A stretch of DNA of 64,000 nt. It comes from a virus. Location of the stretch: positions 1-64,000 of IMG/VR virus record IMGVR_UViG_3300025728_000009; one strand, 5' to 3'. Under the pieces are notes generated by a model. The model searched no databases, had not been told where the DNA came from, and saw only the letters and a program-made list of their open reading frames with translations. A program made the position numbers and the translations under genes. Positions 5,174 to 57,749 of this stretch are shown here, piece by piece. Numbering within the stretch: position 1 is the first letter of the stretch; each line of letters starts with the position of its first letter.

Positions 5174-5920
5174 ATGGCAAAACGTAATCAGGCTCAGATT
5201 GTTCAGGATCGTTGGGAGAAGAAATCCGACGTTGGACGGGTGATTAAAAGCAAGTTTCAAGATGAGAATTACCTAGCTACACCAGTTACTGCTAAAAATG
5301 ATGTGCAAAAATTGTTCTTGAATGCGCTTAAAGAGTTTGATGTCGTAGTATTCTCTGCACCTGCTGGTGTAGGTAAGTCCTACCTTACAATGAGTGAGGT
5401 TTCGGATTGGTTGAAGAAAGGTCTTTATGATAAGATTACTCTTTCTCGTGCAGTGATTCCAATGGGACGTAGTTTGGGTATGTTGCCTTCTACTTTGCAA
5501 CAAAAGTTTGAACCTTTCCTGATGCCGATGCTGGAAGTTCTCTGGAAGCGCTATGGGAAGAGTTATTACGAGAATTGCCTTGCAAATGGTTCAATAGAGC
5601 TGCTTGCACCCGAGTACGCTCGCGGTCGGTCTATCTCTGATATATGCGTGATAGATGAGGTCCAGTGTATGGCCCCAGATGAGCTTTACACTATGCTGAC
5701 TCGCATGGAATCGGGAGCTAAACTAATTCTTATTGGTGACGGCACTGGGCACCAAACAGATATTAAAGGTGTAAATGGTATTGAGTGGCTTACTAAGTTT
5801 GTGGACAAGAACCCAGAACTTCAGAAGCACATCAAAGTAATTACAGCAACTAGCGAAGATATTGTTCGCGGTGGTTTGTGCAAAGCGATGGTTAAAGCTA
5901 AAGAACGGGAGAGTAAATAA
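5174..5920 (+). CDS. phoH: PhoH-like ATPase
   Basis: 248 residues. Walker A is SAPAGVGKS (61-69), Walker B is CVIDEVQ near residue 157, and the segment SRAVIPMGRSLGMLP followed by a Phe-Pro-rich stretch is the PhoH signature. PhoH proteins are P-loop NTPases related to superfamily 1 helicases. They are very common in phages; the role in infection is unsettled (RNA handling or phosphate-starvation response). Translated together with the ClpP-like gene through a TAATG junction. Confidence 0.9.
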   Translation: MAKRNQAQIVQDRWEKKSDVGRVIKSKFQDENYLATPVTAKNDVQKLFLNALKEFDVVVFSAPAGVGKSYLTMSEVSDWLKKGLYDKITLSRAVIPMGRSLGMLPSTLQQKFEPFLMPMLEVLWKRYGKSYYENCLANGSIELLAPEYARGRSISDICVIDEVQCMAPDELYTMLTRMESGAKLILIGDGTGHQTDIKGVNGIEWLTKFVDKNPELQKHIKVITATSEDIVRGGLCKAMVKAKERESK

Positions 5921-6678
5921 TGCAGAAAGTTATGTCATCTGATACAAAAATGATGCCATTCATGGAGCCAAACAAACTCTTCATGACTGAATACCATGAC
6001 CATATTAAGTTTGAATACTACTTGGTTGGTAATATTGGTGATCCTGAAGAGTATCTAGAACTGTGCCATGCTTTGCGCAACTGTAGCGCCCAAGATCAGT
6101 TCATCATCCGACTAAATTCGTCAGGAGGTCAGGTGAGGTCCGGCAACCAAATAATCAACGCGCTGAAAGAATGCCCAGCAACAACCATTGGATTTATTGA
6201 AGCTGATTGTGGTTCCATGTCAACTTTTGTCTTCTTGGCGTGCGATACTTGGGGCGTCAGCCCTTACGCTGAATGGTTTGGGCACACAGTTTCGTCAGGT
6301 TCATGGGGCAAAGAGTGTGAGACGTTTGAGGCATCTCAGTTCTTGCGTAAACAAACACATAAACGGGTTATGGAAGAGTATAATTCATTCCTTTTTCCTG
6401 AAGAAATCGAATCTCTTTTGAAAGGTTCTGATATTTACTTGGATGCTGATCAGATCATGGAACGGCTGGAAACATTTGCAGAAGCCCGTGATTCACAGCC
6501 CTGTTCAAACCCTGACTGCCAAGAGTGCGGTGTTGAACGTGAACCAGAGCTTGACTTTTCAGATATCGTGAAACAAGCAGTAGCTGATGGGATTGCACAG
6601 CATGAAAAAGCGAAAGTAGCAGCTGAAAAGAAAGCTGCCCGCACAAAAGCTACAAAAGTAATCGAGAAATCTGAATAA
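5920..6678 (+). CDS. ClpP-like serine protease with Cys cluster
   Basis: 252 residues. Resembles the ClpP/crotonase fold: RLNSSGGQV (64-72), the nucleophile Ser99 in CGSMSTFVFL (compare GxASMA of ClpP), the His122 in WFGHTVSSG, and an acidic residue around 171-175. Phage ClpP-like proteins are often head maturation proteases, but no head genes are nearby; partnership with PhoH next door is more likely here. A Cys cluster (CSNPDCQEC, 195-203) and a Lys/Ala-rich tail follow the protease domain and are unusual for ClpP. Peptidase activity is inferred. Confidence 0.75.
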   Translation: MQKVMSSDTKMMPFMEPNKLFMTEYHDHIKFEYYLVGNIGDPEEYLELCHALRNCSAQDQFIIRLNSSGGQVRSGNQIINALKECPATTIGFIEADCGSMSTFVFLACDTWGVSPYAEWFGHTVSSGSWGKECETFEASQFLRKQTHKRVMEEYNSFLFPEEIESLLKGSDIYLDADQIMERLETFAEARDSQPCSNPDCQECGVEREPELDFSDIVKQAVADGIAQHEKAKVAAEKKAARTKATKVIEKSE

Positions 6679-12273: not shown

Positions 12274-12468
12274 ATGATACATCACAATACAGAGGAAGGT
12301 GGGCACTTCTCAGTAGGGGTGTCTGCTGTAGGAGAACATATCCTTGTTCAGGTCCAAAATAAGTATGGCGATCAGGCTAGAGAAGCTTTGTGTCCATATG
12401 AGGCTGAACATTTAGCACTACTGATTATGGATTCCTTACAACAACTGAAACAGAGGAATAAACAATGA
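12274..12468 (+). CDS. Hypothetical protein
   Basis: 64 residues from the ATG at 12274 with CAGGAG before it. Contains GGHFSVGVSAVGEHILVQVQN, beta-like, then a helix. Overlaps the next start by four bases. Confidence 0.7.
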   Translation: MIHHNTEEGGHFSVGVSAVGEHILVQVQNKYGDQAREALCPYEAEHLALLIMDSLQQLKQRNKQ

Positions 12469-12653
12469 CCACAGAATATTCCCCTGAGAAACAATTGATC
12501 AAAGATTTCATCCGCTGGGCTAGTGATGTGCACAAGACTGCGCTTGTGCAATTCCCAGATGAATTTGCAGCAAGTCAATATGTCAATTATAGGTTCGTCA
12601 ACGTTGGAAATCTTATTGAGGAGTTTATGAATGACATTCAACGACAAGATTGA
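12465..12653 (+). CDS. Hypothetical protein
   Basis: 62 residues, acidic, helical. Coupled to the genes on both sides. No family recognised. Confidence 0.7.
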   Translation: MTTEYSPEKQLIKDFIRWASDVHKTALVQFPDEFAASQYVNYRFVNVGNLIEEFMNDIQRQD

Positions 12654-12753
12654 ACAACTAGATAAGCAATTAAAAGAGCTTCGCAAGGAATTGGAGAGTG
12701 ATCTTGCGAAATATAGGGATAGTGGTTATTTAATTAAGAGGAAATTGAGGTGA
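12631..12753 (+). CDS. Small basic coiled-coil protein
   Basis: 40 residues starting MTFNDKIEQLDKQLKELRK, a clear heptad pattern. Overlaps the previous gene and ends inside the start of the depolymerase gene, so it is translationally coupled to it. Confidence 0.6.
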   Translation: MTFNDKIEQLDKQLKELRKELESDLAKYRDSGYLIKRKLR

Positions 12754-13568
12754 ATATTCAAACAGTTCAGCTTGGGTCACAGTCAATCCGTATATCTATT
12801 AAACCGGGTAAGATTGGCACAACTCCTCTATTACTCTGCACAGGTATAGGTGCAAGTCTTGAACTACTTACTCCTTTTGTAGAAGCTTTGCACGAACTAA
12901 GCCCCGATACTGAAGTCATTACTTTCGACTATCCGGGAACTGGTGGTAGCTCTACTCCATCAATGCCTTATCGTTTTACTGGCTTAGCTCGCACTATCAC
13001 TCAGATGCTTGACTGTTTGGATTACGGACAAGTGGATGTACTCGGCATCAGTTGGGGTGGTTTCATCTCACAGACTCTGGCTTACGAATACCCACAAAGA
13101 GTACGAAAACTTATCCTCGCTGCTACCTGTAGTGGTGTATTGAGCGTTCCACCAAGTCTTAAAGTATTGAGTTTGATGTCTAGTCCTAAACGATACACAG
13201 ATAAAGATTACGCTGCCAGCATCGCCGCTGATATTTATGGCGGAAAGTTCCGCTCAGACGACGGCCTTGCAGCTCGACATGCTGAACGAATGGGTCAAAC
13301 TAAGTCTGATACGCCACACAGTCAACTTGGGTACTCTTATCAGCAGTTTGCCCTGTGGGGCTGGTCATCTCTTTGGTTCCTACATCAGATTAAACAACCC
13401 ACACTATTGCTCGGTGGCGACGACGATCCTCTGATTGCATTATGCAATATGAAAGTATTGAATCGAATGATTAAAAACTCTACGTTGCATGTCTTAGAAG
13501 GTGAGGGCCATCTTTTCCTTTTAACCGAACCAAAGGTAGTCCCTATAATCAATGAGTTCTTAAACTAA
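12750..13568 (+). CDS. phaZ: PhaZ-like intracellular polyhydroxyalkanoate depolymerase (alpha/beta hydrolase)
   Basis: 272 residues, GTG start after AGAGGA. Alpha/beta hydrolase: oxyanion region TGIGASLEL (31-39), nucleophile Ser101 in GISWGG, acidic residue in GDDDP (223-227), catalytic His254 in GEGHLFL. From memory, the order and wording of the blocks (FDYPGTGGSSTP, YRFTGLA, GISWGG, GGDDDPLI) follow the Pseudomonas mcl-PHA depolymerase PhaZ (about 283 residues) far more closely than other hydrolases. PhaZ releases 3-hydroxyacids from storage granules in the cytoplasm; there is no signal peptide here either. It is the only metabolic enzyme in a run of tiny unknown genes and points to a PHA-storing host such as Pseudomonas. 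A general esterase role is the main alternative. Confidence 0.85.
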   Translation: MNIQTVQLGSQSIRISIKPGKIGTTPLLLCTGIGASLELLTPFVEALHELSPDTEVITFDYPGTGGSSTPSMPYRFTGLARTITQMLDCLDYGQVDVLGISWGGFISQTLAYEYPQRVRKLILAATCSGVLSVPPSLKVLSLMSSPKRYTDKDYAASIAADIYGGKFRSDDGLAARHAERMGQTKSDTPHSQLGYSYQQFALWGWSSLWFLHQIKQPTLLLGGDDDPLIALCNMKVLNRMIKNSTLHVLEGEGHLFLLTEPKVVPIINEFLN

Positions 13569-13586: not shown

Positions 13587-13775
13587 GTGAAATACTACCA
13601 AGCTGTATATCAGACAGATGCACACGGATTCAATGTTGTATATTCTAAGAACATCTGGACAAGTGAGGCAGATGCACGGGAATACCTTTATGAGTTGAGT
13701 AAAATAATGGATGGAGAGGATTGGTCCTTTATGTATAGATCTTGGGTTACAGAACTATTCGTGGATACACCATAA
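13587..13775 (+). CDS. Hypothetical protein
   Basis: 62 residues, GTG start with TTGGAG upstream. Aromatic-rich (KYYQAVYQTDAHGFNVVY, SFMYRSW). TAATG junction to the next gene. Confidence 0.7.
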   Translation: MKYYQAVYQTDAHGFNVVYSKNIWTSEADAREYLYELSKIMDGEDWSFMYRSWVTELFVDTP

Positions 13776-14893: not shown

Positions 14894-15109
14894 TTGAAAC
14901 GTGATGTAAAAATAGAAATGAGTGTACCAGCATACTACCGTAAGCTTGGTGATGATGTAGCTAATACACCAACTGGTAAAGGTCTTACGTTGGCTGAGTG
15001 TAAGAAACTTAAAGACAGCTATTACGAATACGCACTGAAAGTGGAACGTGAAGAACAGGAAGCTTTGAAAGGGTATAAGAAGAGAAGTTTTAAACGAGGA
15101 GGTAAATGA
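14894..15109 (+). CDS. Small basic protein
   Basis: 71 residues, TTG start after AAAGGAAA. Ends in a very basic tail (KGYKKRSFKRGGK), suggesting nucleic acid contact. Overlaps the HNH gene by four bases. Confidence 0.65.
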   Translation: MKRDVKIEMSVPAYYRKLGDDVANTPTGKGLTLAECKKLKDSYYEYALKVEREEQEALKGYKKRSFKRGGK

Positions 15110-16218
15110 TGGAAGGGTGGAAAGAAGTAGAAGGTTGGAACGGTAAATATGAGGTTAGTAATACAGGAGAAGTAAGGAACGCTTGGGACAACGTACCAGT
15201 AGCTAAAGTGATTGCTGGTATTCCTCAGTATTGGTATGTAAACCTTTCAGGTGAGTATGGTCGTGACTTGAAACGCCTACATATTCTTGTGGCTAAAGCA
15301 TTCATTCCTAATCCTGATAACCTACCTATGGTGGACCATGAAGATAGGGATAAGCTGAATAACAATCTTAGTAATCTTCGTTGGGTGACACGTAGTCAGA
15401 ATGGACGTAATCGAGAGACAAATATCATTGTTCAATACCACGGACAAGATAGACTCTTTATTGAGATGTGTGAAGAGTTGTTTGAAGATGACTGGTTTGT
15501 TGCTTATAAATATCTGTACCAACGGATGAAATACCATAATCTAGCTTTCTCTCGGGCACTTGAAGACTATTACAACCTACTTGAACATGGATTTGTTGGG
15601 AATACAGTGGAATGGAATGATGAAGTTGTCTATCTGAATGCCCTTTGCTCTGATTTTAATAAGGAGTACGCATCAGTAAAATCAAGGCTTTCACAAGGAT
15701 GGGATATTTGGAATGCTATCTATGGCATCAAACCTTATTGGACTTATAGTTTTGAGATAACAGATCAGTTAGGTGTTGGCCATTGGTACAGAGATGGCGA
15801 GATGTTTGAAACTAACCACCCTTCTTGTATGGGTACTTGGAAACGCCTTAAAGATGAAGGGAAAACGTTAGATGAAATATTAGCTTATGACGGTAAAGAC
15901 CACCTAAGGCAAACAGTTGAGGGTGTTAATGGTACTCTTGCTGAGTTGTGTAAGCACTTTAATAAGACGCTTTCTAACGTACAGACTAGGGTAGATAAGG
16001 GTATGAGTCTACGCGATGCACTACTTTCCCCTCCTGAGAGAGTTAAGAAAGTTACTATTGATGGTGTATCAGGTAGCCCAAAATATTGGTATGGAGAGTT
16101 TGGTCTTGATTATAAAACTGTAAAACACAAGAAAGACAAGTTGAAGTGTTCCTTTGAGGATATCTTAAAACACTTTGGCGTAGATCTTACTGGTAAAGTT
16201 ATCTCTTATACAGACTAA
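15106..16218 (+). CDS. HNH homing endonuclease with NUMOD4 motif
   Basis: 370 residues. N-terminal NUMOD4 (VEGWNGKYEVSNTGEVRN) followed by an HNH domain (LVAKAFIPNP, VDHEDRDKLNNNLSNLRWVT, about 60-97), as in phage intron-type enzymes such as I-HmuI. The long C-terminal part has repeated segments of the form LCxxFNKxxxxVxxRxxxGxxxxxA (near 180-205 and 285-310), likely modular DNA-recognition units. No intron is visible around it, so it is free-standing. Last gene of the operon, followed by a terminator. Confidence 0.88.
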   Translation: MMEGWKEVEGWNGKYEVSNTGEVRNAWDNVPVAKVIAGIPQYWYVNLSGEYGRDLKRLHILVAKAFIPNPDNLPMVDHEDRDKLNNNLSNLRWVTRSQNGRNRETNIIVQYHGQDRLFIEMCEELFEDDWFVAYKYLYQRMKYHNLAFSRALEDYYNLLEHGFVGNTVEWNDEVVYLNALCSDFNKEYASVKSRLSQGWDIWNAIYGIKPYWTYSFEITDQLGVGHWYRDGEMFETNHPSCMGTWKRLKDEGKTLDEILAYDGKDHLRQTVEGVNGTLAELCKHFNKTLSNVQTRVDKGMSLRDALLSPPERVKKVTIDGVSGSPKYWYGEFGLDYKTVKHKKDKLKCSFEDILKHFGVDLTGKVISYTD

Positions 16219-55769: not shown

Positions 55770-57749
55770 ATGGAATTCAAACGCTTCAGTTCACTAGAGA
55801 ATAGCTACCGTCAGAACCTCATTGACAAAGTTCAATATGAAGGTAAAGATGGTGGTCTGTGGATGGCTACCGAAAAGCTACACGGCTGCTTTCAGGATAA
55901 GACCAAAGTAACTCTACCTGATGGCAGTTATAAGACTATTCAAGAAATTGTAGAGTCCAAATACAGTGGTGAGGTTCTGGGTGTAGATAAAGAAGGCAAG
56001 CTTGTCCCAACCAAAGTTGTTAACTGGTATGAAAACGGGAATACAACTGAGTGGCTTAAAGTAACCTTCCAGACTTATGGTGGTAAGGGCGGTAACAGTC
56101 GTGCTGTAAAATGTACACCAAACCATAAGTTCTTTTCTCAAGGACAATATCTACCAATGTCGGAGTTGGTTGTTGGAGACTCTGTGGAGTACACCTATTC
56201 CGGTTGCTCTTTGAGTTTTATTCAAGAGCAAGTTCTCATTGGTAAGATGCTAGGAGATGGTTCTCTGACAAACTCCTCTGTGGCTTTTGGTCATAAAGAG
56301 TTGCACGAGGACTATACTGATTTTACCCTTAAATGTCTTGGTTCCTTGGCAGGTAAACGTCAGGCTGATACAATGTCGGGATATGGCACAACCATCAGCC
56401 GTGGTCGTAGTATCTCTACAGAAGAAATTGATAAGCTGTTTGAATCGTGGAGTAAGTCTGTTGGTCATGTGCCCAAACTCACTTTGACGCCAATTAGTCT
56501 TGCTTTCTGGTACTTGGATGATGGCAGTGTTTGCTTGAATGACAATCAGAAACCTCGTGCAAGCTTTGCTACCTGTGGTTTTACAAAAGAGTCTTGTCTT
56601 AACTTGAAAGCAAGCCTTGCAAATCTGGGTATTACTTCAGAAGTGAATGGCGAAGAGGGGCGTTTGAGGGTTACTTTGTCAGCAGACTCAACAGATTTGT
56701 TGTTCTCTTATATTTGCAACTTGGTTCCTGAATCTATGCAGTACAAGTTGCCCCCACAGTTTAGAATTCAAGGGTCTGGTGCAGGTTTTGTGGAACAAGC
56801 TACCCACGATTTCACATCTCGTAAATCTTATGCTGTTATTAAAAGTATTGAACAAGTCTGTGAAGATAAACAGCGGTACGATATCGAGACTGAAACTCAC
56901 AACTACTTTGCCAACAATCTGCACGTACATAATTGTAACTTTAGCTTCTGGTGTGATGGTAAGGAAGTAAAGTTTGCATCTCGTACACAGTTTGTTGATG
57001 GGACATTCTTTAATTGTCAAGCCGTTATGAATCAGTATTCCCAAGGCGTACTTGATGGATTCCCATACTTCGCTAAAGAAGGTCAGATACTGGTAATTTA
57101 TGGGGAGTTGTTTGGTGGTAACATTCAGAAAGAAGTAGAGTACGGAGAGAAAGACTTTAAAGCTTTCGATGTTGTAATTGACGGACAACCCGTTCAAAAA
57201 CAATCGGCAATTAATATTGCAGACTCTTGTGGTATTGAGTTTGTCCCTGTCATCCATACTGGTACATTAGCCGAGTGTTTAACTCTGTCAAACACGTTTA
57301 AGTCCACATTGACACCAGAGGGTTACAAAGAAGAGAACACGTCTGAAGGCTTGGTAATTGAGCCTGTAGAGCCTAATTGGTTTAACAATGGAAGTCGTAT
57401 CTACTTCAAAAATAAGACAGAAGGGTTTAGTGAGAAGAAACGTAAACCAAAAGAACATATTGTGTTTGAGTTGTCTGATGAAGAATCAGAGTTGATGAAT
57501 GAGCTTCTGACTTACAACACTATTCAACGTGTGTCTAATGTAATCAGCAAGATTGGTCAAGTAACCAATAAAGACTTTGGTAAGATTCTTGGCCTCACTA
57601 CACAAGACTTGCTTGAAGAGTTCACCAAGGAAACTGAACAAGATCCTAAGCAGATTGCTGAAAGTAATTGGAAATCTTTCCTGAAGCTGCTACAATCAGA
57701 AGTAGGTAAAGAGGTTCGTAGTCAATTTGTTGTGGCTTTGGAGGATTGA
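55770..57749 (+). CDS. Rnl2-type RNA ligase interrupted by an intein
   Basis: 659 residues as translated. Residues 1-39 and 389-659 join to a 310-residue ligase. Motif I KLHG (Lys36) lies right before the intein; CNFSF follows it, as in the EKxHGxNFSF block of T4 Rnl2. Motif III IYGELFGG, motif IV SEGLVIEP and motif V YFKNKTEG are present. T4 Rnl2-type enzymes seal nicks in RNA or RNA/DNA; here the target may be tRNA or mRNA broken by host defences. The ligase can only be active after protein splicing, because the intein sits beside the nucleotidyl Lys. Confidence 0.9.
   Translation: MEFKRFSSLENSYRQNLIDKVQYEGKDGGLWMATEKLHGCFQDKTKVTLPDGSYKTIQEIVESKYSGEVLGVDKEGKLVPTKVVNWYENGNTTEWLKVTFQTYGGKGGNSRAVKCTPNHKFFSQGQYLPMSELVVGDSVEYTYSGCSLSFIQEQVLIGKMLGDGSLTNSSVAFGHKELHEDYTDFTLKCLGSLAGKRQADTMSGYGTTISRGRSISTEEIDKLFESWSKSVGHVPKLTLTPISLAFWYLDDGSVCLNDNQKPRASFATCGFTKESCLNLKASLANLGITSEVNGEEGRLRVTLSADSTDLLFSYICNLVPESMQYKLPPQFRIQGSGAGFVEQATHDFTSRKSYAVIKSIEQVCEDKQRYDIETETHNYFANNLHVHNCNFSFWCDGKEVKFASRTQFVDGTFFNCQAVMNQYSQGVLDGFPYFAKEGQILVIYGELFGGNIQKEVEYGEKDFKAFDVVIDGQPVQKQSAINIADSCGIEFVPVIHTGTLAECLTLSNTFKSTLTPEGYKEENTSEGLVIEPVEPNWFNNGSRIYFKNKTEGFSEKKRKPKEHIVFELSDEESELMNELLTYNTIQRVSNVISKIGQVTNKDFGKILGLTTQDLLEEFTKETEQDPKQIAESNWKSFLKLLQSEVGKEVRSQFVVALED
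55887..56933 (+). mobile_element. Intein with LAGLIDADG homing endonuclease
   Basis: 349 residues (Cys40-Asn388 of the ligase). N-terminal splice block CFQDKTKVTLPDG and TPNHKFF (block B, with the His); C-terminal blocks RYDIETETHNYFANNLHVHN followed by the +1 Cys. The penultimate His and terminal Asn are intact, so splicing should work. Two dodecapeptide motifs, LIGKMLGDGS (156-165) and LAFWYLDDGS (244-253), both with their acidic residues, mark an active-looking endonuclease. Confidence 0.92.

Follow-up and report, generated by a model that had tools for sequence, protein, structure and literature searches.

A phage-encoded homologue of the Pseudomonas mcl-PHA depolymerase PhaZ belongs to a clade shared by different phages

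Why should a phage encode an enzyme resembling the one with which Pseudomonas degrades its own intracellular mcl-PHA? This question is raised by a gene (phaZ, encoding an intracellular-type mcl-PHA depolymerase homologue) at 12750..13568 (+ strand) of the stretch of DNA analyzed here, hereafter the window, which comprises bases 1-64000 of the 91,285-bp IMG/VR virus record IMGVR_UViG_3300025728_000009. The ORF is intact and encodes 272 amino acids from a GTG start, the position of which aligns with the starts in the closest phage relatives, and directly 5' of the GTG lies a ribosome-binding region of the AGAGG/GAGG type (AGAGGAAATTGAG, 12737..12749, +), with similar purine-rich sequence present in relatives L093-L099. 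Upstream is a small gene of unknown function (12465..12653, +), which has no Pfam match and also precedes phaZ in six related phages (62-67% identity), and the next small gene after phaZ begins at 13587 with its own ribosome-binding sequence. All of this falls within a co-directional run of small genes (approximately 2.8-16 kb) that also encodes PhoH, a dCMP-deaminase-like protein, an ATP-dependent DNA ligase and an HNH endonuclease, and the record carries phage genes on either side of phaZ (terminase at 84.5 kb, PhoH, RNR, RNA ligase, and DNA ligase). The local G+C content at phaZ is 44%, compared with 41% in the window, and is near the phage average. Scanning for promoters and terminators yielded no more than expected by chance.

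Three other loci in the window deserve mention in their own right. A large NUMOD4/HNH homing-endonuclease-like protein is encoded just downstream of the phaZ region (15106-16218, +), with relatives in L091, L131, and phage M1; a T4 Rnl2-type RNA ligase gene (55770-57749, +) is split by an intein that carries a LAGLIDADG endonuclease domain; and a ClpP/NfeD-like serine-protease-type protein, supported by only a weak Pfam match, adjoins PhoH (5920-6678, +).

Membership of the window protein in the PhaZ family is strongly supported. It scores 308.8 bits against TIGR02240, the NCBIfam equivalog for poly(3-hydroxyalkanoate) depolymerase (cut-off 250.6), and models of other families reach at most 93 bits on it, far under their own cut-offs. 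The TIGR02240 cut-off was also passed by all eight virus records tested. Because matches above this cut-off are rare in bacterial samples (2 of 274 genomes drawn evenly from the class, 20 of 295 from the order, and none of the 14 controls), the match is not that of a generic alpha/beta hydrolase, an assignment ruled out by the equivalog cut-off together with the control genomes. A short-chain PHB depolymerase was likewise ruled out (NF050089, 52.8 vs. a cut-off of 300). The window protein is 54-57% identical to genomic copies of Pseudomonas PhaZ, and 364 of 400 Pseudomonas genomes contain a match to it at E <= 1e-60. The family assignment is thus shown; activity on mcl-PHA is inferred, as there are no enzyme data.

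The catalytic triad is intact. Aligned with P. putida PhaZ, in an alignment that exactly reproduces the Pseudomonas numbering, the nucleophile Ser101 (GISWGGF; codon 13050..13052, +) corresponds to Ser102, Asp226, the final D of GDDDP (codon 13425..13427, +), to Asp221, and His254 (GEGHLF; codon 13509..13511, +) to His248, and the three residues are invariant in 33 of 33 rows of the clade described below. The lid-linked residues GIG, YGG, GY..Q, and WxS are invariant or nearly so. An AlphaFold2 model of the window protein (pLDDT 92.4, pTM 0.91) places helices over residues 137-202, where the lid sits (133-192 in P. putida KT2440 numbering), and confidently predicts a lidded alpha/beta hydrolase, although one ten-residue block, 181-190, has a mean pLDDT of only 68. 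These results bear out most of a preliminary description of the locus: its claims of a 272-residue ORF with GISWGG, GDDDP, and GEGHLF motifs, of a triad region with Ser101 and His254 (to which the alignment adds Asp226), and of likeness to Pseudomonas PhaZ all held, the tree check that it proposed went in its favor, the structural model was confident, and the signal peptide that it reported missing is not evident, judged by eye only. The recurrent phage clade and the change at Asn35, however, were absent from it.

Phage proteins of this clade carry several near-fixed changes relative to Pseudomonas PhaZ, namely F105 (31/33 rows; codon 13062..13064, +), which is Ala106 in Pseudomonas PhaZ, P135 (32/33), S136 (30/33), and M181 (31/33). 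A further change is confined to the window protein and two others (L091 and L092), in which Thr occupies the place of Asn35, a position that is Asn in all other sampled rows of the family, including the other phage copies. In the window protein the loop therefore reads CTGIG rather than FNGIG, with Gly-Ile-Gly retained and Thr31 (codon 12840..12842, +) at the Asn35 place. The FNGIG loop and Asn35 are reported to be needed for the activity of P. putida PhaZ, with Asn35 mutants being inactive, in a statement on earlier mutants (PMC12504323). The lid hinge is changed as well, being a few residues longer than in Pseudomonas PhaZ through a short insertion, and a single hinge change, S184F, reportedly turns P. 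putida PhaZ from a PHA depolymerase into a better esterase of small esters (PMC12504323). Thr31 leaves the window protein inside the PhaZ family, but it weakens the direct transfer of known P. putida PhaZ enzymology to this protein, and a shift in substrate preference is possible. That the protein is functional is inferred from selection, i.e., from sequence alone and without enzyme data.

An alignment-based profile scan of viral contigs recovered 60 loci, 57 of them within the phage clade; L147, L149, and L150 fall outside and were left out of the 57. No match at the PhaZ level was found in 50,697 named phage records (INPHARED, tblastn). Judged by shared neighboring proteins, the carriers form several groups that otherwise share little or nothing. 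In the group to which the window belongs (L091-L099, including seven records of 81-93 kb), phaZ occupies a conserved place. Other groups are L100/L101 (283 and 228 kb), L131/L148 (104 kb), L104/L105 (up to 91 kb), a large group of about 48 kb comprising L110 and relatives, a second group of up to about 48 kb (L107-L109, L112, L120, and relatives), and L139-L146, in addition to single contigs such as L138 (307 kb), L111, and L113. Virion or tail genes lie near phaZ in L105, L106, L119, and L101. The phaZ of L100 occupies a site held in Noxifer by the hypothetical gene gp081, with collinear flanking genes, and because of this replacement we regard phaZ as exchangeable cargo. One member of the 48-kb group, L133, has a phaZ (2085-2714) whose ORF breaks at 209 amino acids though the match is full length, which reflects either a frameshift or a sequencing error.

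The terminases and other phage genes point to likely hosts. The terminase of the window phage is 53% identical to those of PAK_P5/PS24-type Pseudomonas phages, that of L131 is 78% identical to phiPMW (a P. putida phage), that of L100 is 90% identical to Noxifer (a jumbo phage of P. fluorescens), and that of L138 is 66% identical to phiPA3 (likewise a jumbo phage). The RNR genes of the window share 74% DNA identity with Pseudomonas phage vB_PsaM_M1, and the Pseudomonas host suggested in the preliminary description is therefore supported independently by terminase and RNR relatives. The hosts of both ~48-kb groups are less certain, since their terminases match phages of other gammaproteobacteria (54-76%). 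Integrases occur in 4 of 34 carrier records but gave no match in the window phage, the other members of its group, or the jumbo records; therefore, virulent and temperate carriers both probably exist. The earlier view of the window phage as virulent is likely correct, though unproven, and does not extend to those carriers with an integrase. None of the 29 phage records tested encodes PHA synthase (phaC) or a member of the Pfam phasin family, which favors a role in breakdown over one in storage.

A maximum-likelihood tree built from 71 proteins unites 31 phage rows and two Pseudomonas rows (L003 and L011) in one clade (support 97/91), which is sister to the canonical chromosomal PhaZ of Pseudomonas, with a joint support of 97/94. 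A single clade thus spans different phages, and the window protein falls within it rather than outside the PhaZ lineage. The two bacterial members come from a P. silesiensis megaplasmid (L003, 2977-3870) and from P. lini (L011, 5001-5807). Strict monophyly of the phage copies without them was rejected (AU p 0.003), indicating that phaZ has moved between phages and bacteria too, although the direction of each transfer is unsettled. The phage-type clade is absent from 398 of the 400 Pseudomonas genomes sampled, and one of the 400 has an additional chromosomal copy that shares 67% identity with the L100 protein; rare, closer bacterial copies are not excluded by the scan of the bacterial collection. 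Within the phages, median dN/dS is 0.07-0.16 (Nei-Gojobori, four phage groups), and it is 0.11 between L091 and L092, the nearest sister copies, which share the Thr31 of the window protein. Hence, phaZ has been under long-term purifying selection in phages.

Two further observations concern copies at the margins of this tree. Pseudomonas chromosomes or the megaplasmid contain isolated second copies of phaZ that are related to the phage clade (the above copies of L011 and L003, and L226, 1417-2307); these copies lie apart from the pha operons, and no prophage is obvious in their surroundings. L147 (IMGVR_UViG_2974641675_000001), a record of 280 kb in which the large terminase is strongly matched, encodes a PhaZ that lies outside the main phage clade and may represent a second, independent acquisition.

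Taken together, we consider it likely that the phage PhaZ cuts host mcl-PHA during infection and thereby fuels phage production, although PHA activity, expression, and a benefit to the phage are all inferred. In this model, the infecting phage would make a serine hydrolase resembling Pseudomonas PhaZ, which would act in the cytoplasm, attack PHA granules directly, and convert mcl-PHA to (R)-3-hydroxyacids. These would pass to the host acyl-CoA synthetase and then to beta-oxidation, supplying phage production with acetyl-CoA, energy, and reducing power, while the cytoplasm would also be freed of the granules that fill it. The entry of PHA breakdown products into acyl-CoA metabolism is established for Pseudomonas. 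Besides the family membership, triad, lid fold, selection, shared clade, and missing synthase and phasin genes shown above, the host fit supports this reading, in that terminase relatives have Pseudomonas hosts, in which the PHA system is near-universal. Granule degradation feeding beta-oxidation had already been put forward in the preliminary description, and it remains an inference, as does the timing of expression. Counting against PHA breakdown are Thr31 at the place of Asn35, the changed lid hinge with its insertion, and the PhaZ of the host itself, alongside which an additional copy has no obvious advantage.

One alternative is that the enzymes of the phage clade have shifted to a different ester, each acting as a soluble lipase, thioesterase, or acyl-hydrolase for which PHA is no longer the main substrate; candidate substrates include host lipids, 3-hydroxyacyl esters (e.g., rhamnolipid precursors), and signal molecules. 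In its favor are near-fixed signature changes, among them the replacement of Ala by Phe directly behind the nucleophile elbow (KT106), that of Gly-Lys (136-137) by Pro-Ser, and V182M close to the lid hinge. Asn35Thr in the window subclade also favors it, as does the precedent of S184F, whose reported effect is a shift toward small esters. However, the PHA depolymerase equivalog still matches the whole protein, with other esterase models scoring much lower, the lid-linked motifs are conserved, and the taxonomically clear carriers are related to Pseudomonas phages, which fits a PHA substrate. We regard this alternative as unlikely.

Less likely still is that phaZ is passenger cargo, i.e., a moron of lysogenizing or persisting phages that shifts the PHA balance of the host without a role in lytic growth. 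The gene lies on the opposite strand amid tail or head genes in L105, L119, and L106, some carriers have integrases, and the solitary Pseudomonas copies show that phaZ is able to enter hosts. By contrast, no integrase was matched in the window phage, in related phages, or in the jumbo records, phaZ in the window group sits at a conserved place in a co-directional run of small genes, and purifying selection is strong in presumably virulent groups. Contamination or misassembly, with a bacterial phaZ joined to phage contigs, can be all but dismissed: the carriers are all metagenome records and no cultivated INPHARED phage has phaZ, but the gene recurs in 57 further contigs from several phage groups, with neighbors conserved within groups, and belongs to a distinct clade almost absent from the sampled Pseudomonas genomes, with local G+C near the phage average. 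Beyond the preferred reading, in which phage PhaZ degrades host mcl-PHA, we lean, if only narrowly, toward a bolder version: a dedicated lineage of phage PHA depolymerases, largely from one Pseudomonas-type source, was adapted to infection and traded among unrelated phages, including relatives of Noxifer and phiPA3, to tap the host carbon store, occasionally re-entering bacterial chromosomes.

Compared with known systems, the window protein shares its fold, size, triad, GxSWGG elbow, and GIG and YGG motifs with the intracellular mcl-PHA depolymerase of P. putida KT2440 (TIGR02240), and neither has an evident signal peptide. It differs in being phage-encoded without adjoining PHA synthase genes, in having F105, P135, S136, M181, Thr for Asn35, and the hinge insertion, and in a shorter C-terminus. 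The best PDB match by both sequence and fold is to the esterases Est1 (6eb3, 8v16; 28-29% identity, TM about 0.85), which are not named PHA depolymerases and are far more distant than Pseudomonas PhaZ. The Bacillus short-chain PHB depolymerase PhaZ (8ynv, 8ynw) is also an alpha/beta hydrolase acting on a PHA (TMq 0.76-0.78), but at 18% identity it belongs to a separate family. Phage auxiliary metabolic genes for PHA metabolism (phaC, phbB, fadD, and others) were reported from PHA-producing mixed cultures (PMC12013262). Those genes likewise touch host PHA metabolism, but they lie on the synthesis side and were inferred from metagenomes, whereas phaZ of the window lies on the breakdown side and is part of a phage clade; neither "phaZ" nor "depolymerase" appears in the main text of that study. 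We found no description of a phage phaZ, nor any report of phages tapping carbon-storage granules, in the open-licence literature searched (preprints excluded). Therefore, while the enzyme family and phage metabolic genes are known, a phage-associated PhaZ clade shared across different phages appears to be new.

Carbon-storage granules can form a large part of the Pseudomonas cell. The presence of phaZ in several otherwise different groups suggests that phages may repeatedly raid this carbon store, with the activity itself being inferred, and enzyme work could draw on the phage clade as a natural collection of PhaZ variants that have diverged under selection. The finding would also be relevant to PHA bioprocesses under phage attack. 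More broadly, the shared depolymerase clade predicts that PHA-rich hosts constitute a special, recurrent phage niche, and it would connect infection by phages with carbon turnover in habitats rich in Pseudomonas.
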